DNA of 64,000 bases, taken from contig NZ_CP041345.1 in NCBI RefSeq assembly GCF_013265555.1, positions 62,001-126,000 of the forward strand, given 5' to 3'. The position numbers and the translations under genes are program-made. Positions 12,059-31,168 of the stretch are shown here, one piece after another (the first letter of the stretch is position 1; every line of letters begins with the position of its first letter). The notes under the pieces were generated by a model. It was not told where the DNA came from. It worked only from the letters and a program-made list of their open reading frames with translations, and did no database searches. The stretch comes from Tenuifilum thalassicum (lineage in GTDB: Bacteria > Bacteroidota > Bacteroidia > Bacteroidales > Tenuifilaceae).

Positions 12059-15000
12059 ATGAAGGGAAATATACGCCTACACAGTTCACTTCTAACAAGC
12101 ATGTTGTTAATATTTGCTATAAATTCCTATTCACAGACTGGTCCTGGTGGAGTTGGAAATAGGGATGGTTCAAATGGCCAGCCCAAAAACGTTATATGGT
12201 TCGATGCCTCAGCGCTGGGTCTGAACGATAATGATCCTGTTGCAACCTGGACCGACATGTCTGGAAATGGAAACGATGGTGTTCAACTTACAGCAAGCGC
12301 TCAACCGATATATAGGACCGGACAGATCAATGGAATGCCTGCTGTTATTTTTGATGGTACCGATGATTATATTCCCTTCGATGGAAGTACCATTGTTAAC
12401 TCCGATTATACTGTCATTGTGGTGACTCAACGACGTTCTAACAGGTACAGAAGAGTAATTATAGGAGGATCAACTTCAGCTTCAAATCAGAATTTGCATG
12501 TTTACTGGGAGAATAGCACAAACTTCAGAGCACATCACTATGGGAACGATCTTAGTACTCCGATGATACCAGTTACACAACCCGATTCGGGTGGTACCGA
12601 TCCTAATGTATATGGTATTTTTTCAACCCTGCTATCATCGGGCGATGCAACCGATAATAGAAGAAACTATCAGAATAATACTTTGCTAGGAACTAGAACT
12701 AACTCAACAAAACTCTCCAGCTATAATGGTGCGGCTATTGCACGATATGGTGCCTTAAATGAATACCATGACATTGATGTTGCCGAGCTAATTATCTTTA
12801 GTAATGCCCTTAGCGATGCTCAGCTCCAGATTGTGCATCAGTATCTAAATGTTAAGTATGACATAAATATCAATAACGACTATTTTGACCCCGATGCTAG
12901 CTACACTCACGGAGTGATTGGTATTGGTGAAGAGTTAAACGGTGAGCACTCCGAGGCTGGTGCAGCGGGTTTCTATCTTACAGCGCTTAGTGGGCTAAAC
13001 GTTGGTGAATACGTTTTTGCCTCTCATAACAATCTGGTAAACAATAGCGCCAACTTCAGAACCGATGCGGAGGTTACAGCTGCAGGTGCTGAGGCTGCAT
13101 ATAACCGAATTTGGTATGTTAAGCCTGTTGGGACTCCTGCTGCTCAAATAGCTTTTGATTTTAGCGAGGTGCTTGAAGATGGACTTTTCCCAACCAATAT
13201 TTCAAACTACTGCTTGCTCTATAGAGCTGGAACAACTGGTAATTTTACTAAGGTAAAAAATGCCGATGGGATAAAAAATGGTGATCAGCTTTTCTTCTCA
13301 CTAACCGAAGCCGAGTTAAAGGAGGGTTACTATACGCTTGGTACCGAAGATAATACCAATACTCCTTTAAGGGGTGCTCCAAATAAAACTTGGTACACAT
13401 TAATCTCTGGAAATTGGGGCGACTGGGAGATATGGACTCTTGATCCATCTGGTGCGTTACCCAATAACCCCGACCATTTAACTCCCGATAAATCGCCAAC
13501 AGCCAGCTTCGACAATGTGGTAATCCTTACTGGTAGAACCGTTGTTGTTGATACCATCAATAATCTTCAGCATTCAAGTATTAAGGTTGATGGCCGTTTA
13601 GACCTTACTACAACAACGGGACATAGCTTTAGTACGATTAGCGGATCGGGCCGAATACTTTTAGCAGCTGATAACTTTCCAACGGGCGATGCTACAAATT
13701 TTGTTACTAAAAGTTTGGGTGAGGGAACGGTAGTTTATTATGGAGGCAGTTACGATTTAACCACTGCTCGAGAGTTTTTTGATGTTGAGGTTGAGCTTTC
13801 TAACTCTTCAAATACTATAACCCTACTAAACAACTATACTATTAATGGCGACCTTAGAATAAATACAGGGACCCTTAAAATTAACGATGATGTCTCAACA
13901 ACCATCTTAAACCTTACTGTTAAAGGTGACGTAAGCGTTCAAAGCACAGCGAGCATAGTAACTGGATTAGGGGATACAAGAAGCGCTTATCAAATTGGAG
14001 GCACCATGCCCGCCGACGATGGGAAAAATTATCACGATATTTTCCATCAGTTCTATATTTATGGCGATTTTAATAACTATGGTGTTGTACGGTTCACTAA
14101 CCTAAATGCTCCCGATTACGATAGTTTTGCTGATAATGGTGCGGTTACCGTTCGTTTTATGGGTGCAAGCAATGCCGAGATGAACCTCTACAATACCACC
14201 GATTTTTATAACCTAATTATTGATAAGGGAACCGATAAAACATATAAGGTAAAGGTTTATTCCGATAATAATAGCTATTTCCGGCTTTTTGGTCCTAACA
14301 GTTGCGGAAGAACAACAGGTGCACCTTTTTCAGCAGAAAATCCCCAAGTAAGAAAGGCTTTATGGATATACCATGGTACGCTACAGCTAACAGGTAACAT
14401 TGATATACCCACATTAAGCGAGGGCGGGTTAGCTGGTGGTAATGGAGATTATGCAATCGGGAAAAGTGCTCGATTATGGATCGATGGCAATAGTGTAACG
14501 GTTTATTCCACCGCTAGTAGTGTCGATCAAGTTACAGGCTTTACTTCAAGCGACCCCAACCCTGCTGATGGAGTAAATACTGGCTCTAGCAACCAGGCTA
14601 TGTCGGTTTATGGCGAGTTTAAAATTACGAAAGGTTTCTTTGGAACCCGAAATAGTGCAGGATTCATATTCTGGGCAGCCTCAAATGCTCAGCTAAAAAT
14701 TGAGGGAGGTACCTGCTACGTTGCACAGGTTCGAAGTGCTGGTGGTGGTGGAGGAATAGCATCGTATGTTCAGACAGGAGGTACCATGCAAGTTTTTGGT
14801 AATGAGGCTAGCTACGGTGGCGAGTATACAAGTGCTTACCCCCTATTTGGACTAGAGGGAACCGATGCTGTTTTCCAAATGTCGGGTGGTATTATCCTTC
14901 TTCAAGATGATGATGCGACTAACATGCCTGAATTCTCAATCAATTCTGCTGAAGGCAATTACCAGGTAACGGGAGGTTCCATTAACTTTCAGCTACAAGA

Positions 15001-18000
15001 TGGCCGTTCGGCTCAAATACAATCTACTGCTAATCTATGGAATTTAACCCTTAACAATAGTAGCGGAACAGGTACTGTAGTGTATCAGCTTGATACAAAT
15101 CTTGTTGTTTCAAACGATTTAACCTTGAACCCAAATATTGAACTTGATGTTGAAGATCCTACTGTGACTGGTCTTTATCATGATGTTTCTATTGGAAGGA
15201 ATTTTAGTATATACGAAGGTGCAACATATACCTATGGGCAAAATACAACAACCTTTAATGGCACCCAGGATGGTACTTTCTACATTGGCCATAATACCGA
15301 TGATGGCTATGAGCAATACTTGTGGAACCTTACGGTTAATAAGTCGGCTGGAAGAAGAATCACAATAACAGGAGACCCCAATAAGGATCCTGATAATGTT
15401 TCGGCGGAGTGGCATAACCGACTTGTTCATGTGGTGAACGATGCTAATATAGAAAGTGGTATCCTTGACCAGGGACGACAATCAATACGACTTTTTGCTG
15501 GTGTTTATGTTAAAAAGAATGGTCAGCTTGGTACCTATGAACATGGTACAACACCTACTTCCGCCTATGTTATGTTTAGGGATGGCGATTTAACAATTAA
15601 CTCCGAAAAGGGAGCCACCTTTGGTAATATTAAGTTTAACTCAACTGGTACTGTAACCTTCACAAGCGATATCTATATTAAACGAATTGGGTTTTATCAG
15701 GGTTTATACAATATTCAAAAATATAACCTAAAGGTTGACTACTTCCATAACCTGGCAACTACAAACAATATCGCTGTTTCAAACGGTAGTGTTTCAGAGA
15801 TGATTTACACCAGTGGCAACGCCTCCGACGGGGGAGTATCAATACTAGTTAATTCAAATGGTACGTATTCTTTTCCAATCGGTGTTTCTGGAAAATATAC
15901 ACCTGCACAAGTTGATGTAACTAACTTTTCTGACTCTGGTTATGTAAAAATTGTACCAGTTAATCACTATTTATATACTCTAACAGGAGGATCTTCAAAT
16001 GTGCTGCAGTATTACTGGAAAGTTGATGAAGAAGATTTCAACACATTACCAAATGTATACTGGACATTTTTTTACGATCAAGCAGATGTAGATGGTAATG
16101 AAACTTCTTATAGATCAGCACGCATTATAAACTATAAGACCGTAGAAAATCTAGGAAACTGGTCAGTAGATAGAAATAATAATGAGATTTATTTTGCTGA
16201 TGATGCAACTCAGAATCCAATACCCCTAAAACCTGGTGATTATACTGCTGGTAACCCGAGTGTTTTCAACGCAACGGTTAGAACATTATATGCTCGTAAA
16301 AATGGAGTTTGGCACGATTACACAACTTGGTCTACTACTCCTGATGGAAATACTCCATTAAATAATAAAAATCAACTTCCAACGTATGGGGATATTGTAG
16401 TAATTGGAGAGGCCGCTAGTCATGGAGATGAAAACAAGAATTACTCTGTTGCCATTGATAATACACATCCTGATTACGCGCCGATAAATATTGCAATGCT
16501 TTGTATTCTTCGTTATGGAACTGGAGAGAGTTCTTTGGTTACAGTTGGTCAAAATGGTGCCGATTGTAACTTTGGTGTTGTCACCAATAGAGACCCAGAT
16601 GCAACAAATCCAGATACTTCAATAAACCATGCAAGTAAGATAATTGTTTCTGGGCCAGTATTACCAAATGGCGATTTCGGAGAATTTTTAACTGCTCCCT
16701 ATACAATCTTTACTTTCTCACGAGCCTTCCCTGGTACTAATGCAACAATTGATGATGGATTAGGGGGAACACTTTCTAATAATTATTATGCTTCCTATAA
16801 AATTGGAAATTCAATTACAGAGTACCCTATATTGCAATTTGAGTATGATGGTTATTCAGGCGGTTATATTGAACTACCAGATGTTGATATAACCGTTCAT
16901 AGCGATTTGAGAATGTTCAAAGGTGATCATCATTTGAAGTTTGGAAATTCAACAAATGGAAACTTAACCGTAGAAGGAGACTTTGAGTTTAATGATGGGA
17001 GTTCTTATAATATTGAATTTCAGGCAAGTGGTGTCGAAAGAGTCCTCACAATAAATGGCGATATCAATTTTAACAATCAAACAAATTCGCAATTTTCTGT
17101 AGAAAACGCGGCATCAAGTCTTGTGCATAAAATAAAGTTACAGGGTAGTGTTATTAATCCAAGTACTACTTCTTCATTTAATTGTTTTAATGGTTCAGGC
17201 AACGCAGCTGCCAGTCTTGAGTTCATTGGTTCAGCTAACTCTACGTTTAATGACATGATTACTATCCCCGATTTTTATCAATTAATAATGAATAAGGGAA
17301 CCAATCAAACCTACGTTGCAACTATTAATACTGAACTTAATCTAGGTTCTGATGCTTCATCTACATCTGACTTAAAACCTATCCAGCTATTAAATGGTAC
17401 TCTCCAACTTAATCACCCTACAGGTAATATTGATATTTCTACTGGGGGCGAAAACTTTGAAATTCCATCAACCGCTTGTCTGCAAATTACTCAGGGTACG
17501 GCTAATGTATATGGTGATAATACTGGAATACGTCTCGATGGTAAGATACTGATAGATGGCGGAACTCTCGATATGATTAGTGGGGCTGGGAATGGAAATA
17601 ACTACATCGAGTACTCTGCATCAGGAAATGCACAAATTGAGATAAGTTCTGGAAATCTTTGGGTTGGCTCTCAGATTAGGAGAAGTTTAAATTCAGAGGA
17701 AGGAATCCTTAAGTTTAACCAATCGGGTGGTGAGGTATTACTCGGTGTAAACAGCGGTGGCGATAACGATAGGGCAATCTTCGAAATACTTAACAATGGT
17801 AGTTCATTCTCTAATACTGGTGGCGATTTCTACCTTGTAAACGATTATCGTACTGCCCCAACCATTGCATCAATGTATTTCGATCCACAGATTCTTAGCC
17901 TTTCTTCAGGCTCTACCGTTCATTTTGGACATACTAGCACGGTTGCTGGAAATGCCGATTTTACCTTATATGCCGGAAGAGCATTAAGAAATATTCAGGT

Positions 18001-21000
18001 GAATTCTACCAATTCGCCATCATTAACACTTGATGTTGTTCCTTTAACCTTATATGGTAATCTTACTATTAATTCTGGTGCAACCTTCGATGCTAATGGG
18101 CTCGATTTAAATATTTATGGCAACTTTACAAACAATGGAACCTTTATTGCCAATTATAACAGCACCTACTTTAAAGGAAGCGTTGATCAGCAAATTACTG
18201 GCCAAACCACTTTCTATAATCTTTACAAGACAACATCCAACAAACTCTCAATAAACGATGATATCGATGTTGATAATGATCTTGGATTAAATGCAGGTTC
18301 ATTCTTTGATAATGGTAATACATTATCGGTTCAAGGCGATGTTAATATGGATATCACCACCACTTGGGGCGGAATTGGCGATGGAATATTGATGAATGGC
18401 TCTACACAGCAGGTATTAACTGGTAATGGAACTTTTGGTAAGCTATCTATTAATAATATTTCTGGTGTAGTTTTACCTATCGGAAATGAGTTTACCATTG
18501 AAGATGTGCTTCAGCTTGAAAGTGGAGTTTTTGATATCGATAAAAACCTATTGACATTAAACGCCAATGCAATAATAGTGGAAAAGAATCCCTTCTCAGA
18601 CCATAATATGATTCAAACTAACATTTCGTTTACCGATGCTGGTGTTAAAAAAATCTTTCCATCAATTGTTCCTGCCGACAATTACGGATTTATATATCCC
18701 CTTGGTAGCGAAGGTCGATTCACGCCAGTTGAATTTGATATCGATAATGTTGATGCAGGAGGCTATATAAGAGTTACAGCTGCACACGAGCGCCATCCTA
18801 CCATTGTGAATGATTCCGAGCCTTGTCAGGAAATAGTTGACACAGCGAATGTTCTAAACTATCACTGGTTGTTAGATGCAAATGGAATATCAAACTTTAC
18901 TGCAAATGCTCGCATGAAGTATGATGAAGGAGATTTCCAGCTAAACAATCCTTATTACGATGTAACACATTATATTGCTGCACGACTTTTGTTGAATACT
19001 ACGCTCTGGAATAAGTTTGACCCTGCTAGCTTTGATGAGGCAAACTCTCAGCTTCTTTTCAGTTTTGTTGGTACCGATGATAATGGTGTAAGTGGCGATT
19101 ACACAGCGGGTGTGGAGGATCAGAATGGTACTTGTGAAGGTGCTATCCCCGATGAGGTTCCAATTTACATCACAAAGCAAAACGGACCATGGACCGATGC
19201 CAATACCTGGGATACCTATCCTACTTCAGGTGGTACAGTTCCTGCTGGAGGACCAAGAGGTGCTGTGGTTATTATTGAGCACGAGGTTACTACACCACCT
19301 GTGAACTATATTTTGAACTACAAAACAATTATTAATTCTACAGGGGTAATTAAAATTGGAACAACCTATGGTCATCGTCTTGGTATTGTTGAAGGAACTG
19401 GTAAAATACAACTTGAGCGAGGCGATTTACCTGCAGGTATTTATGACGATTTCTTTGGCAGAAGTGGTGGGACACTTGAATTTACTGGTAGTTCCGACTA
19501 TGACGTGTTAAGCGAAATAACCCATGTTCGTAACCTAATATTCTCAGGAACAGGGCAAAGGCGTTTACCAAACCTCGATCTTGAAATTTACGGCCAGCTT
19601 ACTATTGATGGCTCCGATAATAACCTTTGGGTAAGAAATGAACATTATAGAGACCTTACCCTAGATAGTAATATTGTATTTAACCAAGGGCAATTCTATG
19701 CAGGAATAGATCCTTCAAAAGTTATTTTTAATGGGTCTTACCCTCAAACCATAACAGGAACAGGGAGTTTTACAGGTTCTAACTCCTTCCTTAATGTAGA
19801 TCTTGACAATTCGACTGGCCTTACCTTGGATAGTCCGGTTGAAATTAAAGGGTCGCTAAATTTAATTTCTGGCATTATTACTACCGATAACATAAACATT
19901 CTAACCATTAATAATGCATCGGAGACTGCTGTAACAGGTTATAGTAGTTCAAATTATATAGATGGTCCTATGCAAAAGTTGGTTTCAACTGGTGGCGATT
20001 ATCTATTCCCAGTTGGCGATGCAGGACGTTATGGACCAGTATCTATATTTAATGCATCTAACTCATCAGCAGCTTATTGGAAAGCGGAATATTTCAATAG
20101 TGCCACACCAAATAACGCCTCTCTTGCTGGAAATCTTCAGGCTGTTAGTTCCGACGAGTACTGGGAGATAACAAATCCTAATGCTGGTGACCAGGCTCAA
20201 GTCCAATTACGTTGGGATTCAAATAGCGAAATTACACCCGTTGTTACTGGTAATATTAATGATATTGTTGTAGCTGAATTTAATGGAACGAATTGGGTAG
20301 ATAAAATATCAACTGCCACTGGAGGTAGTTATAGTGGAACGGTAAAAACTTCAAGTAATATTAATGTTGATCCAAAGCAGTATACCTTAGGTTCTAAGGT
20401 TCTAATTACTGCAAAGGCCTATTTTACTACTCTAGACCCAGCTTGCCAGGGTAGTTCAATACCCGTTTCATTTGCAGGAATTATTGACCCCGACAACATG
20501 TATCTTACCCTTTCATATGAAATTGATGGAGTTCCCCAAACCGACATTACCGTTAACAGCTTACCTTATAGCCTACCAGCTACAATTGCAGGTAGCTATG
20601 TACTAACTGGTTTAAAATATAATTCCGATGCTAAAACAGGTGTGGTAGACAATGGCTCTGTTACGGTTAATCCAGCTCCTTCAATATTTAATGTTACCGG
20701 CGGTGGCCAGTATTGTGAGGGTGGTGCTGGTGTCCCAGTAAATCTTGATGGATCTGAAAGTGGTGTTACCTACACATTATATCGAGATGGTAATCCAACC
20801 GCCACATCACTCAGTGGTACGGGTGCAGCATTAAGTTTTGGTAATCAAACTGTACCTGGCTCTTATACGGTTGTTGCTACTAACTCTACAACAGGATGTT
20901 CTCAAACCATGGCAGGCAATGCAAACGTAACAATGAACCCGAATCCTGTGTTCTCAATATCTGGCTCTGCTTCTGCAATTTGTGATGGCGATAATTTCAC

Positions 21001-21286
21001 CTTAACCACAACCTTCACAACTGTAAGTACTCCTTACGATATTGATATAATTAAAGATGGAAGTTCTGTTACTGGTTCTCCTTTTAATTCAAGCAGTAAT
21101 CCTTATGTTTATAGCGAGAACCTACCTTGGTCTGGCCCTGATCCTAGTAATAGCTTTACTTACACGGTAACAGTAACCGACAATAAAGGTTGTTCTAGTA
21201 GTTCATCTTCACCTGTGACTGTTAATGTTTATAAAATACCAGAAACTGGACCTGAATACCATATACCAAATAATTTTGCGTTTTAA
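12059..21286 (+). CDS. Giant secreted multi-module protein 1
   Basis: 3075 aa with an N-terminal signal peptide (hydrophobic core LLTSMLLIFAI, probable cleavage before Q26). Residues about 38-270 resemble a LamG/concanavalin-like domain (VIWFDAS, WTDMSGNGNDG). Three large beta-helix-like modules follow, each opening with an SGNW..W motif: YTLISGNWGDWEIW near 445, ARKNGVWHDYTTW near 1410, and ITKQNGPWTDANTW near 2370. Each contains many GDL.IN.GT.. and NLTLNNSSG.. repeats. The last ~290 residues hold Ig/PKD-like domains with paired cysteines, ending in KIPETGPEYHIPNNFAF. It is likely a surface or extracellular adhesin. No full-length type IX secretion C-terminal domain is seen, so the export or anchoring route is unclear. 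It is paralogous to the next gene. Confidence 0.85.
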   Translation: MKGNIRLHSSLLTSMLLIFAINSYSQTGPGGVGNRDGSNGQPKNVIWFDASALGLNDNDPVATWTDMSGNGNDGVQLTASAQPIYRTGQINGMPAVIFDGTDDYIPFDGSTIVNSDYTVIVVTQRRSNRYRRVIIGGSTSASNQNLHVYWENSTNFRAHHYGNDLSTPMIPVTQPDSGGTDPNVYGIFSTLLSSGDATDNRRNYQNNTLLGTRTNSTKLSSYNGAAIARYGALNEYHDIDVAELIIFSNALSDAQLQIVHQYLNVKYDININNDYFDPDASYTHGVIGIGEELNGEHSEAGAAGFYLTALSGLNVGEYVFASHNNLVNNSANFRTDAEVTAAGAEAAYNRIWYVKPVGTPAAQIAFDFSEVLEDGLFPTNISNYCLLYRAGTTGNFTKVKNADGIKNGDQLFFSLTEAELKEGYYTLGTEDNTNTPLRGAPNKTWYTLISGNWGDWEIWTLDPSGALPNNPDHLTPDKSPTASFDNVVILTGRTVVVDTINNLQHSSIKVDGRLDLTTTTGHSFSTISGSGRILLAADNFPTGDATNFVTKSLGEGTVVYYGGSYDLTTAREFFDVEVELSNSSNTITLLNNYTINGDLRINTGTLKINDDVSTTILNLTVKGDVSVQSTASIVTGLGDTRSAYQIGGTMPADDGKNYHDIFHQFYIYGDFNNYGVVRFTNLNAPDYDSFADNGAVTVRFMGASNAEMNLYNTTDFYNLIIDKGTDKTYKVKVYSDNNSYFRLFGPNSCGRTTGAPFSAENPQVRKALWIYHGTLQLTGNIDIPTLSEGGLAGGNGDYAIGKSARLWIDGNSVTVYSTASSVDQVTGFTSSDPNPADGVNTGSSNQAMSVYGEFKITKGFFGTRNSAGFIFWAASNAQLKIEGGTCYVAQVRSAGGGGGIASYVQTGGTMQVFGNEASYGGEYTSAYPLFGLEGTDAVFQMSGGIILLQDDDATNMPEFSINSAEGNYQVTGGSINFQLQDGRSAQIQSTANLWNLTLNNSSGTGTVVYQLDTNLVVSNDLTLNPNIELDVEDPTVTGLYHDVSIGRNFSIYEGATYTYGQNTTTFNGTQDGTFYIGHNTDDGYEQYLWNLTVNKSAGRRITITGDPNKDPDNVSAEWHNRLVHVVNDANIESGILDQGRQSIRLFAGVYVKKNGQLGTYEHGTTPTSAYVMFRDGDLTINSEKGATFGNIKFNSTGTVTFTSDIYIKRIGFYQGLYNIQKYNLKVDYFHNLATTNNIAVSNGSVSEMIYTSGNASDGGVSILVNSNGTYSFPIGVSGKYTPAQVDVTNFSDSGYVKIVPVNHYLYTLTGGSSNVLQYYWKVDEEDFNTLPNVYWTFFYDQADVDGNETSYRSARIINYKTVENLGNWSVDRNNNEIYFADDATQNPIPLKPGDYTAGNPSVFNATVRTLYARKNGVWHDYTTWSTTPDGNTPLNNKNQLPTYGDIVVIGEAASHGDENKNYSVAIDNTHPDYAPINIAMLCILRYGTGESSLVTVGQNGADCNFGVVTNRDPDATNPDTSINHASKIIVSGPVLPNGDFGEFLTAPYTIFTFSRAFPGTNATIDDGLGGTLSNNYYASYKIGNSITEYPILQFEYDGYSGGYIELPDVDITVHSDLRMFKGDHHLKFGNSTNGNLTVEGDFEFNDGSSYNIEFQASGVERVLTINGDINFNNQTNSQFSVENAASSLVHKIKLQGSVINPSTTSSFNCFNGSGNAAASLEFIGSANSTFNDMITIPDFYQLIMNKGTNQTYVATINTELNLGSDASSTSDLKPIQLLNGTLQLNHPTGNIDISTGGENFEIPSTACLQITQGTANVYGDNTGIRLDGKILIDGGTLDMISGAGNGNNYIEYSASGNAQIEISSGNLWVGSQIRRSLNSEEGILKFNQSGGEVLLGVNSGGDNDRAIFEILNNGSSFSNTGGDFYLVNDYRTAPTIASMYFDPQILSLSSGSTVHFGHTSTVAGNADFTLYAGRALRNIQVNSTNSPSLTLDVVPLTLYGNLTINSGATFDANGLDLNIYGNFTNNGTFIANYNSTYFKGSVDQQITGQTTFYNLYKTTSNKLSINDDIDVDNDLGLNAGSFFDNGNTLSVQGDVNMDITTTWGGIGDGILMNGSTQQVLTGNGTFGKLSINNISGVVLPIGNEFTIEDVLQLESGVFDIDKNLLTLNANAIIVEKNPFSDHNMIQTNISFTDAGVKKIFPSIVPADNYGFIYPLGSEGRFTPVEFDIDNVDAGGYIRVTAAHERHPTIVNDSEPCQEIVDTANVLNYHWLLDANGISNFTANARMKYDEGDFQLNNPYYDVTHYIAARLLLNTTLWNKFDPASFDEANSQLLFSFVGTDDNGVSGDYTAGVEDQNGTCEGAIPDEVPIYITKQNGPWTDANTWDTYPTSGGTVPAGGPRGAVVIIEHEVTTPPVNYILNYKTIINSTGVIKIGTTYGHRLGIVEGTGKIQLERGDLPAGIYDDFFGRSGGTLEFTGSSDYDVLSEITHVRNLIFSGTGQRRLPNLDLEIYGQLTIDGSDNNLWVRNEHYRDLTLDSNIVFNQGQFYAGIDPSKVIFNGSYPQTITGTGSFTGSNSFLNVDLDNSTGLTLDSPVEIKGSLNLISGIITTDNINILTINNASETAVTGYSSSNYIDGPMQKLVSTGGDYLFPVGDAGRYGPVSIFNASNSSAAYWKAEYFNSATPNNASLAGNLQAVSSDEYWEITNPNAGDQAQVQLRWDSNSEITPVVTGNINDIVVAEFNGTNWVDKISTATGGSYSGTVKTSSNINVDPKQYTLGSKVLITAKAYFTTLDPACQGSSIPVSFAGIIDPDNMYLTLSYEIDGVPQTDITVNSLPYSLPATIAGSYVLTGLKYNSDAKTGVVDNGSVTVNPAPSIFNVTGGGQYCEGGAGVPVNLDGSESGVTYTLYRDGNPTATSLSGTGAALSFGNQTVPGSYTVVATNSTTGCSQTMAGNANVTMNPNPVFSISGSASAICDGDNFTLTTTFTTVSTPYDIDIIKDGSSVTGSPFNSSSNPYVYSENLPWSGPDPSNSFTYTVTVTDNKGCSSSSSSPVTVNVYKIPETGPEYHIPNNFAF

Positions 21287-21299
21287 AAAGCATTTGAGT

Positions 21300-21322
21300 A
21301 AAGCCCCGAGAATCGGGGCTTT
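21300..21322 (+). terminator. Rho-independent terminator after giant gene 1
   Basis: Perfect 10-bp stem (AAAGCCCCGA / TCGGGGCTTT) with a GAA loop, 13 bp after the stop codon. It shows that the short C-terminus is not a truncation running into further coding sequence. Confidence 0.85.
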
Positions 21323-21719
21323 ATGTTTAAAATATTGTGGATGTTTTACCTTGTTTTATCTGGAAATAAAGGTACTTGCAGAAATGTTTAATTTTGCATA
21401 GCAAATATAGGCCAAAAAACACATAAACGGTCAAAAATTACAAATGTTAAACATATATGTGCATGTGTATCATATAGATAGTGTTTTTTGTTTTAACTTT
21501 GAATAAATTTTAGTGGTAAAAAGAAACCTTTTTGCATATTTCTCGATTAATAAAGTTAACAGTTTGGGGAAAATTAAGATATATGAAAACACATATCTTT
21601 AAGCAGCTATCTGAATTAAGATCATTCTTATAAGTATTGGTTTGATATTTTTACATTCTGAAAGTAACCATTAAGATGGTTTTTAAGTAAGCAAGCAATA
21701 ATTGATAATTCAATATATT
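21323..21719 (+). other. Spacer between the giant genes
   Basis: AT-rich, gene-free. A TAACTTTG at 21494-21501 fits the Bacteroidota -7 consensus TAnnTTTG, but the -33 element at the expected distance is not convincing. If used, it would give a leader of about 210 nt for giant gene 2. The terminator before it suggests separate transcription of the two genes. Confidence 0.4.
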
Positions 21720-24700
21720 ATGGGCACAAAAAATATACCTGACATAAGTTATGGTCAGAATAGGGTAGTTGGCCAAAAAACAGTAAAGGCTTTTTTAACA
21801 CTCATTATTCTCATGGCTACCTCATTCGGTTCTTTTGCACAGAAAACTTGGGATGGAGGGGGTGATGGCAGTAGTTGGAGTAGTGCCAATAACTGGAATC
21901 CCAATGGGGTTCCCTTGCCTACCGAAACTGTTACAATTTCATCGAACGCCAACTTAACAATTAATGTTGATGGTGATTTTACCTGTGCAGGGCTTACGCT
22001 ACAGCTAACAGGAAATCAAAATGGCAATAGAACCTTAGCTTTAAATGTTTTATCAGGGAATACTCTAACTGTAGATGGTTCTGTAACAATAGATAATATT
22101 TCAACAAGGAATAATAGAACAAAAGTTTGCTTTATAGATGTTCAAGGAACGTTGAACGCAAATGCTGGTATTACAATTTCAAATACAACAAGAACTAATA
22201 AGATAGGAAGTTTAAGGGTATCGGGTGGTACTATAAATGTTGTAGGTGATATAATAATGTCAGGCAATCCCCCACGAAATGATATAACATTTACTACTGG
22301 TACTATAAATATAACAGGTACTATCTCTGGAGGTGCACTAAACGAAGGCACTGGAACAGTTAATTACAATTCCTCTGGCAATCAAGATATCGGTGCTTAT
22401 ACCTATTACAACCTGTCTGTAACGGGGGGAGGAACAAAATCGTTAACAAATAACACTACGATTAATAACACGCTAACAATTACAAACTCTATTCTTAGTT
22501 TAGGTAACAATAACCTAACTTTATCTAATTCCTCAACAAGTGATGTACAGGGCGGTCCGTTTAGTGCATCTTGTATGATTGCTACTGATGGTACTGGTTA
22601 TGTTGAACAAGCAGTTCCATCTGCAACGCCCTATACAATGCCCATAGGTTCTAATGGGGTTTACTCTCCAGTTGTTTTAAGTAGCATTACTGGCTCCACT
22701 TTCCTAAGGTTTAGAACTGTATATAATACTACATTAGGTTCTCAGTATTTAAAACGATACTGGCAAATAACAGGTTCGGGGGCATCAACGGCTACAATCT
22801 CATTTCAATACGATGCAACCGAAAACCCTGTTGACCCAACTCTTATTTGGGTACGCCCAACTGCAGGAGCATGGGCTGCACCCTCTGGTACACAGACGTT
22901 CGATAGCGGTGCAAAAACATTTACTGTTACTAACACTACCGATATAACTAACGTTACTTCAGAATGGACTGCTGGTTTTCCTGTAAGAACATTCTTTTCC
23001 TACCAATCAGGGAATTGGGATGATGCATCAACGTGGACTAACGATCCAGGCGGAACAACCTGGACAAACATAGGCACACCATCATCTGATGGCGATATCG
23101 TTGTTATACTTTCTGGTAGAACGGTATCCCTTAGCTCCGATGTTACTACAGCAAACCTTGAAATTAATATTAATCAGGGTGGTATCCTCGATATGGGATC
23201 TTTCCAATTTACAAATCCCCTTGGTAAGCTTTCAGGGCAAGGGATTCTTAAACTGGCAACAACCAATTTCCCTACTGCTGCAACCAATACTTTTGTTGAT
23301 GCAGGTGGAGGTATAACTGAGTATTATAACCCCACCGATTTTACTCTCCCTGTTGGTCAAACAACTTATAATACTTTAAGAATTAACGCGCCTGGAGTAA
23401 TAGCCACACAGCTCAACAATCTTACTTTGAATGGGGATTTGCATGTAATGCAGGGTACATATCGAATTAACGATAACACCTCTGCTAGACGAGAGCTAAC
23501 CATTATGGGAAGTGTGACAGTTGAGAGTGGTGCATCAATTACTGTGGGAAATGGTGTTACCAATACAACCACAAATCCTACTGCTGTGGCCGAAGGAGGA
23601 ACTGCTCCCCTTACAAACTATTACTACACTCAATCGCATACCGTTCAAGTTTATGGCGATTTCACCAACTATGGTACTGTTCGATTTACAAACCTAACAT
23701 ATCCTGTGTATAACCAGCTACCCCCTACAACACTTGGTTCTACTTCGGGGTATGCAACAGTATTTTTTAGAGGAACAACAAATAGTACCTTATGGTGTGA
23801 GGGCACTACAGATTTTTACAACCTTGTACTCGATAAAGGGGTCGATCAAACCTATAGCCTTACAATTTATTCAACAGCTTATCAGAATTTTAGGCTCTTT
23901 GGTGCTAATATTGCAGGTGGTTATGGAGGTGGAGCAAACCCAAATCTTGATAAGGCCCTCTGGATTAGAACAGGTACGCTTGTATTACAGGGAACAACAA
24001 TAATCCCTTCACTTAGCGAAGGAACATGCGATAGTGGAACAGGTGGTCCTAATTCCGACTATTTTATTCCTGGTAATGGGGCTTTAGTTCTCGACGGCGA
24101 TAATGTGGTTGTTCTCACCACCGCCGATAGCTATCAGGAGGTAAACGTGGCCTATAATGTTAGCGCACCCAACGATGCCTCAATGGGAATAAACACATCC
24201 GCTGGTTGTAGTTCATTTTCGATATATGGCCTCTTAAAGATTAATAAGGGTTATATTTCCACACGTGAAAGCGGTGGATTTATCCAATGGCCAGTAGCAT
24301 CAGGTCAGTTCGAAATTAATGGGGGAACTGTTGATGCTAAGCAGTATAGAACAGCTGGAGCTGCAGGTGGATTAGCTTCGTTCACTCAAACAGGTGGTAC
24401 ATTCTACCTGCGTGGTAGGTTCACTCGTACCCCTTCGGCATATTCGTCGGTAAACGATCTTATAAATGCGCCTATTAGCACAAATCGCTCTACTGGCGGC
24501 TTACAAGGTGCTGTGGGTACATTTAACCTTAACGAGGCCGAGAATGTGTTTAACATGAGTGGTGGCTCAATTTATATTTATGATGTGTGTGGCGATGGCT
24601 CTTCGGCTGCCCAACAAAAGGTTTTTGAGGTTTATAGCGATCAGAGCAATGTTGAGGTTTCTGGTGGTTCAATTATTATTATGCCTACTACTGGAACGGG

Positions 24701-27700
24701 TGCCGCCGATTCACCAATTTACCGAATTGTTTCAACCGCTCCATTTGGGAACCTTTCTATTAATAGACTGAGCGGCACTTCAAATGTGATGCTCGATACT
24801 TATCCTCTCACTGTAATCTCTAACTTTTCAATCTTATCTGGCGATTTTGATGCAAACAGCCTGAATGTTACAATTGGTGGAAACTTCTTTGTAGCATCTG
24901 GTACTACATATACTACAGGCGACAACTGGACAATCTTTAATGGCATTGCCAACCAAACAATAACTTCTAACACAGCCACTCCACTTGTGTTCAAAAAGCT
25001 AAAAATGGATAAGCTGGCTGGTAAAATACTTAACTTTTCTGGCAGTCAAACCGATTTTCATGTACAAGATTCTTTAATGCTTGTTTCTGGTACTTTTAAC
25101 GATGGTGGCAAAACCATTTCTCTAATCCCGTCGACTACATCTACAACATCATACATTTACAATAGTGCAACTCATTTAGGTAGTGGAAAAATTGTAATTG
25201 CAGATGATGATCCTACTGTAATAGATGGCGATGGTAATGGTGTTTTTAACAATCTAGAACTTAACAACACCGATGCTCTTGATGCCCCTGTAAGCTTAAG
25301 TAATAACATCTCGATTACAGGAACATTAACCTTTTCGCAGGATAAATTGCTCGATATAAATTCATACAATATCAGGTTTTCTTCAATGGCAAGCGTTGTC
25401 GGAGCTAGTTCAACACGCTACATTACAAGTTCCGGAGAAGCAGGAAATGGAGGAGTAACCCGTTCGTTTACTTCAGGAGCTACTAGCTTCACATTCCCTG
25501 TTGGAGCAGCATCAACATCCCACGCAACTCCTGCTTATACTCCAGCCACAGTAACCATAACAGGAACACCTAATTCTTGGGGCGATGTTACCATTGTACC
25601 TGTTGGTTATGAGCATCCTGCAACCACTAACAAGGGACGCTCACTTACCTATTACTGGAGAGTAAAAACTACTAACTTAGATCTTGGATCGGCCACCGCT
25701 TCATTAGGATTTACATACGATGATGCTGATGTGGTAACTGGAGGTGATATTTCAGAGAATGAGTATGTTGCAGCACGTTTTAACATAGACGCTGCCACAT
25801 GGACTAGTGGTACTGCTTCTGATGTTGATGAAACCACAAACCTAATAGGAGAGCCTGGAACAGGTAGTTTCCTTGAGAATCTCTCTTCTATTGATGGCGA
25901 TTATACTGCTGGAGACAATAACCCAACTAATCCTTTTGGAACTCCAACTGTATATTACAGCCGACAATCGGGAAATTGGAATAATGTAAACACTTGGTCA
26001 ACGGTTAGCCATACAGGTCCTGCTGCTAGCTCTACTCCTGGTGCAAGTGATATTGTAATCGTAGGAAATGGTAACACCGTAACTCTTACTCAAAATGAAA
26101 ATTGTGCAGTTTTACAAATCGAAAATGGGGCAACTCTAGATATTTATACATATACTGGAAGTAATTTTGCTTTGGTAGCAAATCATCCAAGTGGTTTAAA
26201 TGGTTTATTTAGGGTAACAACGCCAAAAACCAGTTCAAATTCTGTCCCTGGTGTGTTTTCATTTCCAACTGGTGATTTTAGCGAATTTAATGTAAACAAG
26301 GGAACTACTGAGTTCTATGATATTGATGGAACTGCTGGTGCACTTTATATTTTACCTGCTAATGTTAATTCATATGGTAATCTTATACTAAGAGCAAAGG
26401 GTGGTGATAATTTGGTTTTACCTAACAATTCATATACTAAAATTTATGGTGATTTAACATGTACTGGAGATGCTTCAACGGCTTGGATCGCTTTGTGCTG
26501 GAATACTAACATTTGGCCTTACTATACTTCTGATTACGATCCAACTATTGAAAAAACAGTATATGTTGATGGTAATTTGTACGTAGATGCTGGTACATTT
26601 ATTTTCTTTAACGATGAGCAACCTCAACATTTAATTGTTGAAGGAAATGTTCAGGTTAATACAGGTGCTACTCTTAGAATTTATCCAGCATATCCTTTTG
26701 CAACACCTGTTATTACTAATAATACTTTAAAAATTGGAGGCTCTTTAATTAATAACGGTACTGTGTCTTTAAGAGAGACTTCTGGTGGACGAACATATTT
26801 TGTAAATACAACATTTTTCAATTCTAACACTTCTTATATTACAAATACAGGTGGAAATCCTACAACAATTTTTAATAATGTTATTGTAGATAAAGGTTCT
26901 TCTCAAGCCGACTCGCTTATAATTGATATTGGAGGAACTCTAACAACCCCTACCGACAACTGGCTTACCCTTCAAAATGGTACGTTGGTTTACAGAAGGA
27001 CCGACCCTAACTCCGATTTTACTATTTCAACAACTACTCCTTTTATAATTCCAGAAACCGCTGGTCTTTTAATTGATTACCCAAATAACGCAAATAATAC
27101 TAGTGTTCTAATAGCCAATGCGAATACAAACTCTAATGACGTAACCCTTGCTGGGAAATTTGCTGTTAGAGCCGGTCAGGTTTACGTGGGCCCCACAAAT
27201 GGAACAACCAATAGTAATAACGATATTGTTTATACTGGCGATGGAAATTCCACCCTGGTTATTGATGGAGGGCAGCTGTTTGTTAATGGACAAATACGCC
27301 GAAATACAGCTACAACCACAGGTGTACTTAAGTATTACCAAACCGATGGAGAGGTTTACATTAACGGTCAGGGAGCCGATGCAACTGCATTAACTAGAGC
27401 GAAACTTGAAGTTACCAATAATGGTAGCGTGTTTAATATGAGCGGCGGGATAATTAATATAATTCGCGGAGGTGGAACAACATATGGCGATTTATACATT
27501 CGACCCCAAAGCTCAAGTGTAACCGGAGGTGAGATTGTATTTAGCTCAATCCCCAGCTCTTGGAGTGCTGTAAATGCAAACCAAACCTATAGAATTGATG
27601 CCAATGTTCCCCTTAATAATATTACTATAACTGGAGATAATATTGGAACCCCCTACTCCGCCACCGTATCGTTAATGGTTAATCCTCTCGTTCTGAATGG

Positions 27701-30700
27701 TTCGCTAACTTTAAGCAATATTCAGAGTTTCTTGGTAACTAATGATATTGATGTTTCATTAAAGGGCGATTGGGTTAATAATGGAACATACACATCAGGA
27801 AGTAATACTACCACCTTTAACGGGAATGCACAGCTAGTTTCGGGTGCTTCGCTAACTGCTTTTAATAACCTGGTAATTAACCCAATTACCTCGGTAACAT
27901 TATCTACCAATGATATAGATGTTAATGGTGATTTGACCCTATCAAACGGAACGCTTATTTGCAACAGTTACCAGGTTAATTTAAAGGGCGATTTTACCAA
28001 TGATGCTACCTATACAGATAATGGAAATAATACAGGGGTTATCCTTAATGGGACGGCATTACAATATATTTCCGGAACGGGTACATTTAGTACACTAGAA
28101 CTTTACAATACAAGCGGGGCACGCCTGCAAAACTCTATTACGCTAACCAAGAACCTGGTTCTAACCCAGGGTATTTTTAATATTAACCAGTATATGCTTA
28201 ACCTGGGTATTAATAGTATTGTTGATGGCGCTCCTTTTGGTACATCAAAGATGGTTATGGTTGATGGAGCATTTAGTAATGTGGGTATTAGAAAATATTT
28301 TGACGCCTACTCCGGTGCTGCACAAACCTTTACCTATCCTCTTGGTGTAATGGGCAAGTACACGCCTGCAGAATTTACTTATACCGACAATACTACCACA
28401 GGATACATCAGGATAAATGCTATTAATTCTCATCACCCCGGTGTTCTCGATCCAAACAGGGTACTACAATACTATTGGGAGGTTGAAAATAATGCCGTGG
28501 CAGGTCTAAATGGCAGCCTTGTGTTCTACTATGATAATGCAGATGTTAAAGGCTCTGAGGTTGACTATGTTTCTGCCCGAACAGTTAATAATACTAGTTG
28601 GAGTAAATCAGCACCAGGCCCTACAACCGACAATGTCGATGAAACAAATGATATTATTACTTTCATCCTCATAAATACCAATGACATTACCGGTGAGTTT
28701 ACAGCAGGTGAAGACCCCGCCATTCCTAATAATATTCCACAATTCACCTCTCAAAAAGATGGGAATTGGAACGATCCTACAGTTTGGGTTCAAACCGGAG
28801 GAGACCCGTACGTATTAACCGGCGGGCCTAACGGGTTTATTGTAACAGTTAGCGAGCAGGACACTGTTGACCTAAACCAGAATCAAGCTTTTTGCTATAG
28901 GATGACAATTAATGGTACCTTGAGGGTAGTTGAACCCTACTATGGCCATAATATTGGTACGGTACTTGGCCAAGGAACCCTTTACCTCGATCGTGGTCCA
29001 TTCCCTGCTGGCCGCTACGACAGCTTTGTCGATTGCTCTACCGGTGGAACAATTGAGTATGGTGGTAACACCGATTACAATATTGCTGCTGATTTATACA
29101 GCCAGGTTCGTAGGCTTCATTTTACTGGAACAGGAATCAGGTATCTACCCAATAAGGACCTAACCATATGCGAACAACTCTTAATTAACGGTCCTACAGT
29201 TGATAACTCATTAAATAACCGCAAGCTAACCATACTTGGATCCATGGAACGATATGGTACCGGTCTTTTCAAAGCGGGAACCGGAGTAAATGCCATAGTT
29301 GAACTTGCCGGTTCGGCAGCACAAACAATTGGTGGTCCAACCGGAGACTTCTCCGGGACAAGCAAGTTTAATCATCTTATAATCAACAATTCATCGGGAG
29401 TGTCAGTCGGCAATAATGGCTTAGTTGAGGTTAGTGGTAATCTTTACTTAACAAATGGAGTAGTTACAACCACTTCAACCAATCGACTTTATTTAAACAA
29501 CTCGGCTATTAGCTGTGTATTCCCTTCTGGCGGCTCTTCATCTTCGTATGTAGATGGACCTTTGACCAAGAAAATTTTACAGGGTGACTCATTCAAATTT
29601 CCTATAGGAAAGGGAACAACTCTTGGAAATAAGTTAACCCTTACCTCATCGCAGTCTGGAACCATTGATTGGACAGTAGAGTTTTTTACCCCGAACCCAA
29701 CTTATAACTCTTACGCTTCGCCTCTTACCTATGTTAACTCAATGGAGTATTGGACGGTTAGCGCTACTGCTGGAAGCTTAGCCTACGTGGCATTGGATTG
29801 GGATGCAGCAAGTGACCTTACTCCACTTATGACTCAAAATGGTCTTTCCGATATGCGTGTAGCGTATGATAATGCTGGCGTTTGGACAGAACTATCGTCC
29901 ACTGCTTCTGGTACATCAACTGCTGGAACAGTAACAACTTCATCAAGGATAACCATACCTGCATCAGGATCTCAAACCTATACAACCTCATGTATTAATA
30001 CCACAAAGCCAAGGGCTAGGTTTAACCCCTCAGGCCCTGTTTGTGGCGATGCTGGAATACCTGTGATATTTATAGGTTCAGTTAAGCCTCTTAATTATGT
30101 GTTAGAATATACTAAAGATGGAGTACCACAAACTCCTGTTACGGTAACATCTGTGCCTTACACACTACCAACCGATCCTACAGGTGCAACCTATCAGCTT
30201 ACTAGTTTTACTTACAACAATCCGGGTACTCCTACAACCGGAGTGGTTGACCCAACTCCTGTTACCACCTATACCCCACCTACTACTGCTGCTGCGGGAC
30301 CCGATCAATCGCTTTGCGGTGCTACTCAGGCAACCCTGGCGGCAAATACTCCTACAGTTGGAACCGGACAGTGGAGTATCGTTTCCGGGTTGGGCGGCAC
30401 TATTCAGCAACCAACCATTCCATCTAGCTTGTTTGATGGGATTAACGGCAATAGTTATACATTACGTTGGACCATTACAAATGGCGGCTGTACCTCTTCC
30501 GATGATGTAAATATTGCTTTCCCCTTACTTCCCGAAACACCTGCTGCCTTTGTTACATCCGACAATAGTGTTTGCCAAGGTGATGTTGGGGTTGCATACT
30601 CTGTCGCTAATAATCCCTCCTTAACTTACACATGGTCATATTCCGGAACAGGAACTACAATCAATGGTTCTGGAAATGCCATTACCATTGACTATGGCTC

Positions 30701-31133
30701 AGCGGCAACTTCAGGTGATGTGAGCGTTTATACAACCAATGGTTGCGGTAATAGCGCTCCATTAACACTACCCGTTACTGTAAACGAGAGACCTACTGCT
30801 ACTATTGCCATTACCGGCAGTAATCCTATTTGCGATGGCGACCAGTCTGAACTTACCATAACTCTAAGCGGTGGTACTTCTCCTTACGATTTTCAACTTA
30901 CCGATGGTACCAATACGTATAGTTTTACCAACGTTACCTCACCTTATGTTTATACAACACCAAACCAAGCATGGACCGGCCCAGGTGCAAGTAATACTGT
31001 TACTTATTCAATACCAACAGTTACTTCTGCAAACGGATGTAGCAATCCTGGTTCAAACACCGTTGATGTTAACGTTTTCAAAATCCCCGAAACAGGACCT
31101 GAGTATCATATCCCAAATAATTTTGCGTTCTAA
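21720..31133 (+). CDS. Giant secreted multi-module protein 2
   Basis: 3137 aa from the ATG at 21720; a TTG six codons upstream is less likely. Signal peptide core is AFLTLIILMATSFGSFA, cleaved before QKTW. It opens with a short SSWSSANNWNPNGVP module instead of the LamG-like domain of protein 1. Three large modules then begin at FFSYQSGNWDDASTW (near 425), YYSRQSGNWNNVNTW (near 1410) and FTSQKDGNWNDPTVW (near 2340), almost the same positions as in protein 1. Sequence similarity is clear, for example YGDFNNYGVVRFTNL versus YGDFTNYGTVRFTNL. C-terminal Ig/PKD-like domains and the identical 17-residue tail follow. It is a tandem paralogue, likely a cell-surface or extracellular structural protein or adhesin. 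Confidence 0.85.
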   Translation: MGTKNIPDISYGQNRVVGQKTVKAFLTLIILMATSFGSFAQKTWDGGGDGSSWSSANNWNPNGVPLPTETVTISSNANLTINVDGDFTCAGLTLQLTGNQNGNRTLALNVLSGNTLTVDGSVTIDNISTRNNRTKVCFIDVQGTLNANAGITISNTTRTNKIGSLRVSGGTINVVGDIIMSGNPPRNDITFTTGTINITGTISGGALNEGTGTVNYNSSGNQDIGAYTYYNLSVTGGGTKSLTNNTTINNTLTITNSILSLGNNNLTLSNSSTSDVQGGPFSASCMIATDGTGYVEQAVPSATPYTMPIGSNGVYSPVVLSSITGSTFLRFRTVYNTTLGSQYLKRYWQITGSGASTATISFQYDATENPVDPTLIWVRPTAGAWAAPSGTQTFDSGAKTFTVTNTTDITNVTSEWTAGFPVRTFFSYQSGNWDDASTWTNDPGGTTWTNIGTPSSDGDIVVILSGRTVSLSSDVTTANLEININQGGILDMGSFQFTNPLGKLSGQGILKLATTNFPTAATNTFVDAGGGITEYYNPTDFTLPVGQTTYNTLRINAPGVIATQLNNLTLNGDLHVMQGTYRINDNTSARRELTIMGSVTVESGASITVGNGVTNTTTNPTAVAEGGTAPLTNYYYTQSHTVQVYGDFTNYGTVRFTNLTYPVYNQLPPTTLGSTSGYATVFFRGTTNSTLWCEGTTDFYNLVLDKGVDQTYSLTIYSTAYQNFRLFGANIAGGYGGGANPNLDKALWIRTGTLVLQGTTIIPSLSEGTCDSGTGGPNSDYFIPGNGALVLDGDNVVVLTTADSYQEVNVAYNVSAPNDASMGINTSAGCSSFSIYGLLKINKGYISTRESGGFIQWPVASGQFEINGGTVDAKQYRTAGAAGGLASFTQTGGTFYLRGRFTRTPSAYSSVNDLINAPISTNRSTGGLQGAVGTFNLNEAENVFNMSGGSIYIYDVCGDGSSAAQQKVFEVYSDQSNVEVSGGSIIIMPTTGTGAADSPIYRIVSTAPFGNLSINRLSGTSNVMLDTYPLTVISNFSILSGDFDANSLNVTIGGNFFVASGTTYTTGDNWTIFNGIANQTITSNTATPLVFKKLKMDKLAGKILNFSGSQTDFHVQDSLMLVSGTFNDGGKTISLIPSTTSTTSYIYNSATHLGSGKIVIADDDPTVIDGDGNGVFNNLELNNTDALDAPVSLSNNISITGTLTFSQDKLLDINSYNIRFSSMASVVGASSTRYITSSGEAGNGGVTRSFTSGATSFTFPVGAASTSHATPAYTPATVTITGTPNSWGDVTIVPVGYEHPATTNKGRSLTYYWRVKTTNLDLGSATASLGFTYDDADVVTGGDISENEYVAARFNIDAATWTSGTASDVDETTNLIGEPGTGSFLENLSSIDGDYTAGDNNPTNPFGTPTVYYSRQSGNWNNVNTWSTVSHTGPAASSTPGASDIVIVGNGNTVTLTQNENCAVLQIENGATLDIYTYTGSNFALVANHPSGLNGLFRVTTPKTSSNSVPGVFSFPTGDFSEFNVNKGTTEFYDIDGTAGALYILPANVNSYGNLILRAKGGDNLVLPNNSYTKIYGDLTCTGDASTAWIALCWNTNIWPYYTSDYDPTIEKTVYVDGNLYVDAGTFIFFNDEQPQHLIVEGNVQVNTGATLRIYPAYPFATPVITNNTLKIGGSLINNGTVSLRETSGGRTYFVNTTFFNSNTSYITNTGGNPTTIFNNVIVDKGSSQADSLIIDIGGTLTTPTDNWLTLQNGTLVYRRTDPNSDFTISTTTPFIIPETAGLLIDYPNNANNTSVLIANANTNSNDVTLAGKFAVRAGQVYVGPTNGTTNSNNDIVYTGDGNSTLVIDGGQLFVNGQIRRNTATTTGVLKYYQTDGEVYINGQGADATALTRAKLEVTNNGSVFNMSGGIINIIRGGGTTYGDLYIRPQSSSVTGGEIVFSSIPSSWSAVNANQTYRIDANVPLNNITITGDNIGTPYSATVSLMVNPLVLNGSLTLSNIQSFLVTNDIDVSLKGDWVNNGTYTSGSNTTTFNGNAQLVSGASLTAFNNLVINPITSVTLSTNDIDVNGDLTLSNGTLICNSYQVNLKGDFTNDATYTDNGNNTGVILNGTALQYISGTGTFSTLELYNTSGARLQNSITLTKNLVLTQGIFNINQYMLNLGINSIVDGAPFGTSKMVMVDGAFSNVGIRKYFDAYSGAAQTFTYPLGVMGKYTPAEFTYTDNTTTGYIRINAINSHHPGVLDPNRVLQYYWEVENNAVAGLNGSLVFYYDNADVKGSEVDYVSARTVNNTSWSKSAPGPTTDNVDETNDIITFILINTNDITGEFTAGEDPAIPNNIPQFTSQKDGNWNDPTVWVQTGGDPYVLTGGPNGFIVTVSEQDTVDLNQNQAFCYRMTINGTLRVVEPYYGHNIGTVLGQGTLYLDRGPFPAGRYDSFVDCSTGGTIEYGGNTDYNIAADLYSQVRRLHFTGTGIRYLPNKDLTICEQLLINGPTVDNSLNNRKLTILGSMERYGTGLFKAGTGVNAIVELAGSAAQTIGGPTGDFSGTSKFNHLIINNSSGVSVGNNGLVEVSGNLYLTNGVVTTTSTNRLYLNNSAISCVFPSGGSSSSYVDGPLTKKILQGDSFKFPIGKGTTLGNKLTLTSSQSGTIDWTVEFFTPNPTYNSYASPLTYVNSMEYWTVSATAGSLAYVALDWDAASDLTPLMTQNGLSDMRVAYDNAGVWTELSSTASGTSTAGTVTTSSRITIPASGSQTYTTSCINTTKPRARFNPSGPVCGDAGIPVIFIGSVKPLNYVLEYTKDGVPQTPVTVTSVPYTLPTDPTGATYQLTSFTYNNPGTPTTGVVDPTPVTTYTPPTTAAAGPDQSLCGATQATLAANTPTVGTGQWSIVSGLGGTIQQPTIPSSLFDGINGNSYTLRWTITNGGCTSSDDVNIAFPLLPETPAAFVTSDNSVCQGDVGVAYSVANNPSLTYTWSYSGTGTTINGSGNAITIDYGSAATSGDVSVYTTNGCGNSAPLTLPVTVNERPTATIAITGSNPICDGDQSELTITLSGGTSPYDFQLTDGTNTYSFTNVTSPYVYTTPNQAWTGPGASNTVTYSIPTVTSANGCSNPGSNTVDVNVFKIPETGPEYHIPNNFAF

Positions 31134-31140
31134 TAAAAGT

Positions 31141-31168
31141 AAAAAGCCCCGGACTACCGGGGTTTTTT
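31141..31168 (+). terminator. Rho-independent terminator after giant gene 2
   Basis: AAAAAGCCCCGG pairs with CCGGGGTTTTTT across an ACTA loop (one G-U pair), ending in six T. It lies 7 bp past the stop codon. Confidence 0.88.

Follow-up and report, generated by a model that had tools for sequence, protein, structure and literature searches.

Two giant secreted proteins with the same C-terminal peptide

The window analyzed here, a 64,000-nucleotide stretch of the Tenuifilum thalassicum genome, contains neighboring genes for two giant secreted proteins that end in the same 17-residue peptide, hereafter the tail (Table 1). The two giants are paralogues (32% identity across 2685 aligned columns). 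A degenerate form of the tail pattern has exactly two matches in the window, at the two giant ends, and none in 100 shuffles. An earlier reading of this DNA from sequence alone had placed the start of the first tail at 21234, one nucleotide off; the terminators that it reported after both stop codons were recovered as probable ones. Elsewhere in the window (42882-63838) lies a surface polysaccharide cluster, judged from translations by eye, with genes for sugar epimerases, a polysaccharide export protein, a Wzc-like kinase, a flippase and glycosyltransferases.

Table 1. Giant genes and associated features, in window coordinates
Feature	Position	Strand	Remarks
Giant secreted protein 1	12059..21286	+	3075 aa; tail at C-terminus
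Signal peptide of giant 1, MKGNIRLHSSLLTSMLLIFAINSYSQ			Read by eye
Ig_3-like match near C-terminus of giant 1			Pfam E=0.00028, below curated cut-off
Tail 1, KIPETGPEYHIPNNFAF	21233..21283	+	Stop codon 21284-21286
Hairpin 3' of giant 1, probable terminator	21300..21322	+	10-bp stem; read directly, absent from hairpin scan
Giant secreted protein 2	21702..31133	+	At most 3143 aa; tail at C-terminus; TTG start listed at 21702, ATG at 21720 likelier
PKD_6 domain near C-terminus of giant 2	30543..30776	+	Residues 2948-3025; Pfam E=1.4e-11
Tail 2, KIPETGPEYHIPNNFAF	31080..31130	+	Stop codon 31131-31133
Hairpin and T-run 3' of giant 2, probable terminator	31147..31168	+	Hairpin 31147-31162, listed by the scan on the opposite strand; T6 follows it on +

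As the sequence-only reading had stated, the tail codons of the two genes differ at synonymous positions only: a Nei-Gojobori count gives 7 synonymous differences over 10.3 sites and 0 nonsynonymous differences over 40.7 sites. The surrounding regions have indeed diverged. Ungapped amino acid identity in the codons preceding the tail is 50, 37, 25 and 21% over 10, 30, 60 and 100 codons, respectively, and the 100 nucleotides 3' of the stops are 31% identical. Given these synonymous differences and diverged flanks, the identity of the two tails does not represent a recent conversion tract. Selection on the peptide itself, also proposed from the two copies, is borne out in the window's family: pN/pS is 0.14 in the 11 core codons both of 34 large tail proteins and of 22 small ones, versus 0.78 and 0.91 in the respective preceding 30 codons, the latter two values being inflated by ungapped comparison.

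Recent gene conversion or shared ancestry alone can hardly account for the identical ends. The giants are neighboring paralogues, and both carry a rare GPE variant, with E for the usual Q, that is seen in only these 2 of the 55 distinct tails described below. However, 7 of about 10 synonymous sites differ, and the tail is also present on proteins with no detectable similarity to one another; its wide distribution refutes conversion or ancestry as a sufficient cause. The rare E common to the two giants appears to be either a parallel change or an old exchange, a recent one being excluded by the synonymous differences.

The giants carry no recognizable T9SS C-terminal domain (CTD). For the type B CTD (about 85 aa), neither an NCBIfam match nor CHU_C (Pfam) is found in them at E<=1; the type A CTD TIGR04183 (about 72 aa) gives no match to the giants at the same threshold, despite 31 matches in the window genome. 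No PorP/SprF gene lies beside the giants: the ten PorP-family matches of this genome (G000) are located at C1:183287 and beyond, the window corresponding to C1:62001-126000. The similarity that had been pointed out to the start of a type B CTD is weak, amounting to about five residues (IPNxF, by eye). Of the five motifs, A to E, that PMC12618676 reports as required for secretion, the giants show by eye no more than this IPNxF likeness, after which the chain ends.

The tail is a terminal module on unrelated proteins

A search of 60 related genomes with the last 28 residues of the giants matched 30 of them at E<=10, including 24 of the 27 genomes in the window's family (G000-G026); G003, G018 and G022 had no match at this threshold. 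We collected 55 distinct tails, of the form V-x-[KP]-x-P-x-T-G-P-x-Y-H-[IV]-P-N-[NTS]-[FYW]-[AG]-x-stop. The P at -2 (the P-x-T-G proline) is conserved in 55/55, N in 54/55 and H in 53/55, the T-G being imposed by the collecting pattern. The module may be summarized as P-x-T-G-P-x-Y-H-[IV]-P-N-x-[FYW], with two main subtypes, PETGPQYH on giants and PVTGPIYH on a small protein; in one giant (G007) the tail reads LPETG.

A hidden Markov model built from 42 tails gave 150 matches over the ORFs of the fetched loci, of which 146 end 0-6 residues before the stop codon (overlapping loci are counted more than once) and four are internal, all weak. The terminal matches correspond to 110 distinct ORFs. 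Since loci were fetched for having tail matches, this count measures the position of the tail, not its frequency; the motif is not mostly internal. In agreement with the proposal of an unnamed module, no NCBIfam model matches the tail and no Pfam model covers it in the two giants. Nor did we find it described in the literature searched, which consisted of open-licence texts, so that a description may be in print.

Tail carriers fall into three classes. The first comprises giants with ORFs of about 2000-5100 aa (some truncated by contig ends), often two per genome. The second is a small secreted protein of about 270-460 aa, with no Pfam relatives in 21/21 proteins scanned, no PDB relative by sequence, and no convincing NCBIfam match in the two proteins scanned. 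The third class, whose members measure about 1060 aa except for one of 467 aa, adjoins secreted FGE-sulfatase-like proteins. These FGE-sulfatase-domain neighbors (L043:8149-9672, L047:10152-13229 and L122:8068-11145) were recognized by Pfam for one protein each in L043 and L047 and otherwise by eye; one weakly matches GldK (E=0.006).

When the 115 residues preceding the tail were compared between large and small tail proteins, hhalign detected no profile similarity (probability 0.7 and 0.9%, with 55 and 57 rows, excluding 5 of the 122 tails, for which no split was possible). The tail is thus what large and small carriers have in common. A whole shared C-terminal domain, or 'type C CTD', was also considered and is opposed by this result on the terminal domains. 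An AlphaFold2 model of one small tail protein displays Ig-like beta domains and a tail in coil, whose pLDDT of 59 falling to 49 fits either a free peptide or the shallow alignment used (21 rows). Foldseek comparison of this model to the PDB returned generic Ig, fibronectin- and cadherin-like folds, with query TM-scores of 0.15-0.31 among the 50 best-listed rows. The suggestion that the tail caps a beta-helix is not supported: where they can be named, the domains that it follows are Ig-like, and the preceding 115 residues differ among carriers. We conclude that the tail is a conserved C-terminal peptide module on otherwise non-homologous secreted proteins.

At E<=1e-3, the tail is found in 37 of 393 genomes sampled from the order Bacteroidales (43 at E<=0.01) and in 1 of 395 genomes sampled across the phylum, namely the window's own. 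T9SS genomes at large thus do not have it. The translocon protein SprA is present in 8/8 tail-bearing genomes tested; an association with T9SS, expected at the outset, holds in this sense, but the tail is confined to one order. In the window genome itself, 11 matches to the type B CTD (8 above cut-off), 31 to type A and 10 to the PorP family were counted. The named loci that encode the small protein are labeled as Bacteroidales, Bacteroidetes or Bacteroidota metagenome-assembled genomes, and include one Perlabentimonas gracilis (Tenuifilaceae; L141), one locus labeled Rikenella microfusus and one labeled Acidobacteriota, probably a misplaced contig.

A cassette with a type B anchor

In the window genome, the small tail protein belongs to a cassette (L035) in which its gene (C1:252651-253604) is followed by that of a protein that we call the anchor (C1:253702-254793) and by a PorP/SprF gene (C1:254935-255930). 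The 363-aa anchor combines Ig-like domains with a type B CTD, scoring 58.6 bits with TIGR04131 (cut-off 35) and 68.3 with CHU_C (cut-off 27); the PorP/SprF protein, whose match lies at C1:254950, scores 225 bits with TIGR03519 (cut-off 90.55). This cassette includes no giant. It is located about 127 kb beyond the window and about 160 kb from both giants, and the tail of its small protein is atypical (IPTTWAN vs IPNNFAF). In more distant families, giant, small protein, anchor (about 360 aa) and PorP/SprF genes follow each other in a single operon (L113-L118 and L120, by eye). Among 22 named small-protein loci, a text-pattern count, in which not every unflagged locus was inspected, finds CTD-B and PorP together downstream in 15, and each counted alone in 18.

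Other elements recur around these cassettes. The small protein is sometimes tandemly duplicated (L119, L126, L127 and L131), and small proteins in tandem whose tails are degenerate (PKTGIIEHIKNL, PATKKLQHVRNM, PTTSPIQHLKNL and similar) are present in or near cassettes in these four loci, in L162 and in L163. A conserved protein of about 290 aa, with R.PQ.[VI]RRV.V...YE... near its start (by eye), is often encoded upstream of the small tail protein (L037, L038, L044-L046, L049 and L125). In G026 (L042:2-2511), gldM- and gldN-like genes were recognized by eye within a few kb of the cassette. At L169:122-2347 (G013:C47), another anchor-like protein of the standalone type, the second one there (4e-40), is followed by a PorP-like gene; no tail protein is flagged in the 7 kb covered, and the contig starts just before the anchor-like protein.

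The cassette PorP proteins may also inform on the type of display. The twin cysteines of SprF are described as forming a disulfide with GldK on the gliding track (PMC12635249). Of nine tail-cassette PorPs, six, including that of the window genome, have no cysteine and three have cysteine only in the first 20 residues. They thus differ from SprF in lacking its twin cysteines, and the display that they would support is expected to be static.

Tails co-occur with standalone anchors

We searched the 393 genomes of the order with a profile of the anchor Ig region, without CTD (27 rows). Because the Ig repeats match 264 genomes at E<=1e-12, a standalone anchor was counted only at E<=1e-40 and in an ORF of 410 aa or less; up to seven candidates were scored per genome, so that a weaker second anchor may be missed, and a partial match cut by a contig end (G270) was kept. 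Standalone anchors were found in 36 genomes, 32 with a tail and 4 without; 5 genomes have only the tail and 352 have neither (Fisher p 2e-37). By family (about 120), 10 have both elements, 2 only the tail and 1 only the anchor (p 6e-12). Both p-values are optimistic as genomes are related. Most exceptions are explained on inspection: contigs end at the anchor in G178 and G266 (L160 and L161), G068 has the divergent tail PTTSPIQHLKNL (L159), G389 carries a different tail, described below, and in G107, G298 and G143 a weaker anchor or a CTD-B protein adjoins the tail protein (L132, L174 and L163). G210 and G402 stay exceptions.

In eight loci (L158, L164-L167 and L171-L173), the anchor is fused to long adhesin-like proteins: its Ig region is found toward the C-terminal end of a longer ORF, with a type B CTD at the end (judged by eye) and an adjacent PorP gene (by text pattern in four loci, by eye in the other four). 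These ORFs range from 433 to at least 3745 aa, the latter being open at a contig or locus end. Another genome, G156, looks fused by ORF length alone (536 aa). Three genomes have standalone and fused anchors together with the tail (G270, G405 and G067). Five others, representing only two families (f8 and f15), have only the fused form among strong matches (G033, G150, G247, G040 and G252), and none of them appears in the tail list. Such a pattern would be expected if a tail and a separate anchor were to replace a covalent joint. Two standalone anchors have no PorP seen alongside (L163 and L170), and in G094 an anchor-like region opens a 569-aa ORF without visible CTD (L176, partly masked), fitting neither form.

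The tail type follows the anchor: certain standalone anchors are accompanied by different shared tails, and this can be so even inside one genome. The two cassettes of G062 have tails like TGPVYHLPNN (L119) and PEPVLDNITSN (L170), and in G389 (L157) a standalone anchor and PorP are preceded by two proteins with the common tail GDIxSSxSLTRR. In G219, four of five tail proteins were examined, and all end in [VI]AK. Giant and small tails also co-vary: their identity within a family is 0.52 at positions +4 to +12, compared to a permutation mean of 0.39, and apart from the true pairing none of the 40320 family permutations attains 0.52 (36 genomes from 8 families; for G270, the giant row was scored as gaps). 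Phylogeny is partly responsible for this co-variation.

Proposed docking on the anchor and alternative explanations

The sequence-only reading had suggested a sorting, anchoring or assembly tail. The sorting and anchoring part is partly supported in that a type B CTD protein, usually with a PorP/SprF protein, is encoded beside the tail; rather than a complete sorting signal acting alone, the evidence favors a tail that docks on a separate anchor with a type B CTD. Other proteins with a type B CTD are reported to be exported by the T9SS and bound to the surface by a cognate PorP/SprF protein (PMC9143113, PMC12618676). We may hypothesize that the anchor is exported in this way and held on the surface by PorP, as for PG1035-PorP and SprB-SprF, and that the giant and small tail proteins, which have no CTD of their own, would bind it non-covalently by their tail. 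Such a split adhesin has, in our estimate, an even chance of being the right model. A one-piece type B adhesin (adhesin-Ig-CTD) would be replaced by two pieces, and one anchor could serve several proteins. Passage of the tail proteins through the outer membrane might occur together with the anchor, as its passengers, or through separate recognition of the tail.

The comparison to SprB-SprF and PG1035-PorP is apt in that the window-genome anchor is a type B cargo with an adjacent PorP-family gene; however, the tail proteins have no CTD, and a short anchor with separate proteins takes the place of one large adhesin. Several observations argue against docking. The co-occurrence and co-variation of tail and anchor are partly phylogenetic, 12 families having the tail, 11 the anchor and 10 both. 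The window giants lie far from their cassette, whose small-protein tail is the atypical one, and neither the two anchors without adjacent PorP nor the G094 form is accommodated. To our knowledge, there is no precedent for exporting a passenger of 3000 aa attached to a carrier of 360 aa. Furthermore, giant and small tails mostly differ (PETGPQ vs PVTGPI), which implies that their partners may differ as well.

An alternative that we consider unlikely is that the tail on its own acts as a minimal sorting signal for the T9SS, read by SprA or by the cassette PorP/SprF, the anchor being a further cargo of that barrel. None of the scanned tail proteins matches a CTD model although SprA is present in the genomes tested, the cassette usually includes PorP, and IPNxF recalls type B CTD openings such as RIPNTFTPN in L127. 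However, according to PMC12618676, each of five motifs across the last 100 residues of the SprB CTD is needed for secretion in F. johnsoniae. The tail also tracks the standalone anchor rather than PorP and CTD-B in general: the five fused-anchor genomes with PorP are not in the tail list. Less probable still is an assembly contact among tail proteins themselves, for example of the giant on the small protein, for which the anchor would only be a base. Operons with giants also encode the small protein, which in some cases is duplicated in tandem, and the co-variation of giant and small tails would fit as well; yet both carry the tail, so that a single acceptor is more economical.

The P-x-T-G core raises a further question: could it be the site at which a sortase-like or PorU-like transpeptidase cleaves the protein and joins it to the surface? 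Its P is invariant among the collected tails, T and G are conserved (by way of the collecting pattern), and the LPETG of the G007 giant resembles the sortase LPXTG signal, as does the position of the core near the C-terminus. Against this, sortase PF04203 is found in 0/8 tail-bearing genomes versus 3/14 controls, there is no hydrophobic (membrane) segment by eye and no basic end, and the YHIPN beyond the core is about equally conserved. We rejected the tail as a sortase substrate and regard cleavage in general as very improbable.

Returning to docking on the anchor, a more precise form, tentative and rather doubtful at present, is a natural split Ig domain. The tail would provide a linker and first strand and the anchor the remainder, as its N-terminal Ig domain (Ig1), the two being joined non-covalently by donor-strand complementation, with a tail code specific to each anchor paralogue. 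Type V pili and chaperone-usher pili are donor-strand systems, and SpyTag/SpyCatcher is a split-Ig tag/catcher pair; the likeness is that an Ig-like domain, here a candidate acceptor, may be completed by a short peptide from the end of a different chain. The anchor profile has no invariant lysine and thus, unlike SpyTag/SpyCatcher, no sign of an isopeptide bond. Open-licence papers pairing type IX secretion with donor strands were judged to cover fimbriae, plus a review.

Support for the tail as a first Ig strand is mixed. In four of the eight fused proteins (junctions PVSGPIMAQH..., PNTGNIETITN..., PETPQIMAEDN... and PAVGEIQVQD...), 19-22 residues separate the linker proline from the first Cys of the anchor module, and 12-13 in the other four (hand count). 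The longer spacing is close to the sum of the tail (15) and the usual 6-7 residues (range 5-12) before Cys in standalone anchors. By a crude signal-peptide rule, Ig1 begins 5-12 residues before the first Cys in 38 of 47 proteins, with three implausible calls and six proteins giving no value. With a tail position-specific scoring matrix, the fused junction is the top-ranking site within its protein in four of eight cases, and ranks second in two, fourth in one and eighteenth in one, at scores (-17 to +4) far under those of real tails (39.5 or more). In an AlphaFold2 model of the anchor, Ig1 has a short strand before the Cys and a next strand, much as Ig2 and Ig3 do. No confident earlier strand is seen in any of the three, so that a strand missing from Ig1 is only a possibility.

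A one-piece analogue of the proposed arrangement is seen in GhpA, the giant grappling hook protein of Aureispira (PDB 9flp), a T9SS cargo. The anchor profile matches its C-terminal part, the best stretch aligning profile positions 178-350 with chain residues 5709-5889 (whole sequence E=3e-85 over 19 stretches). GhpA differs in that anchor region and adhesin are on a single chain.

If docking on the anchor is correct, the tail would define, for Bacteroidota, a new class of tag for surface display from the C-terminus, by which proteins of about 3000 aa would be shown at the surface via a common anchor, without a T9SS domain of their own. Secretome prediction would change, since the tail proteins scanned match no CTD model, and the system would allow a direct test of whether the T9SS carries passengers. 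Should the tail bind the Ig domain, it would also provide a peptide tag that is genetically encoded and of which several variants occur in nature.
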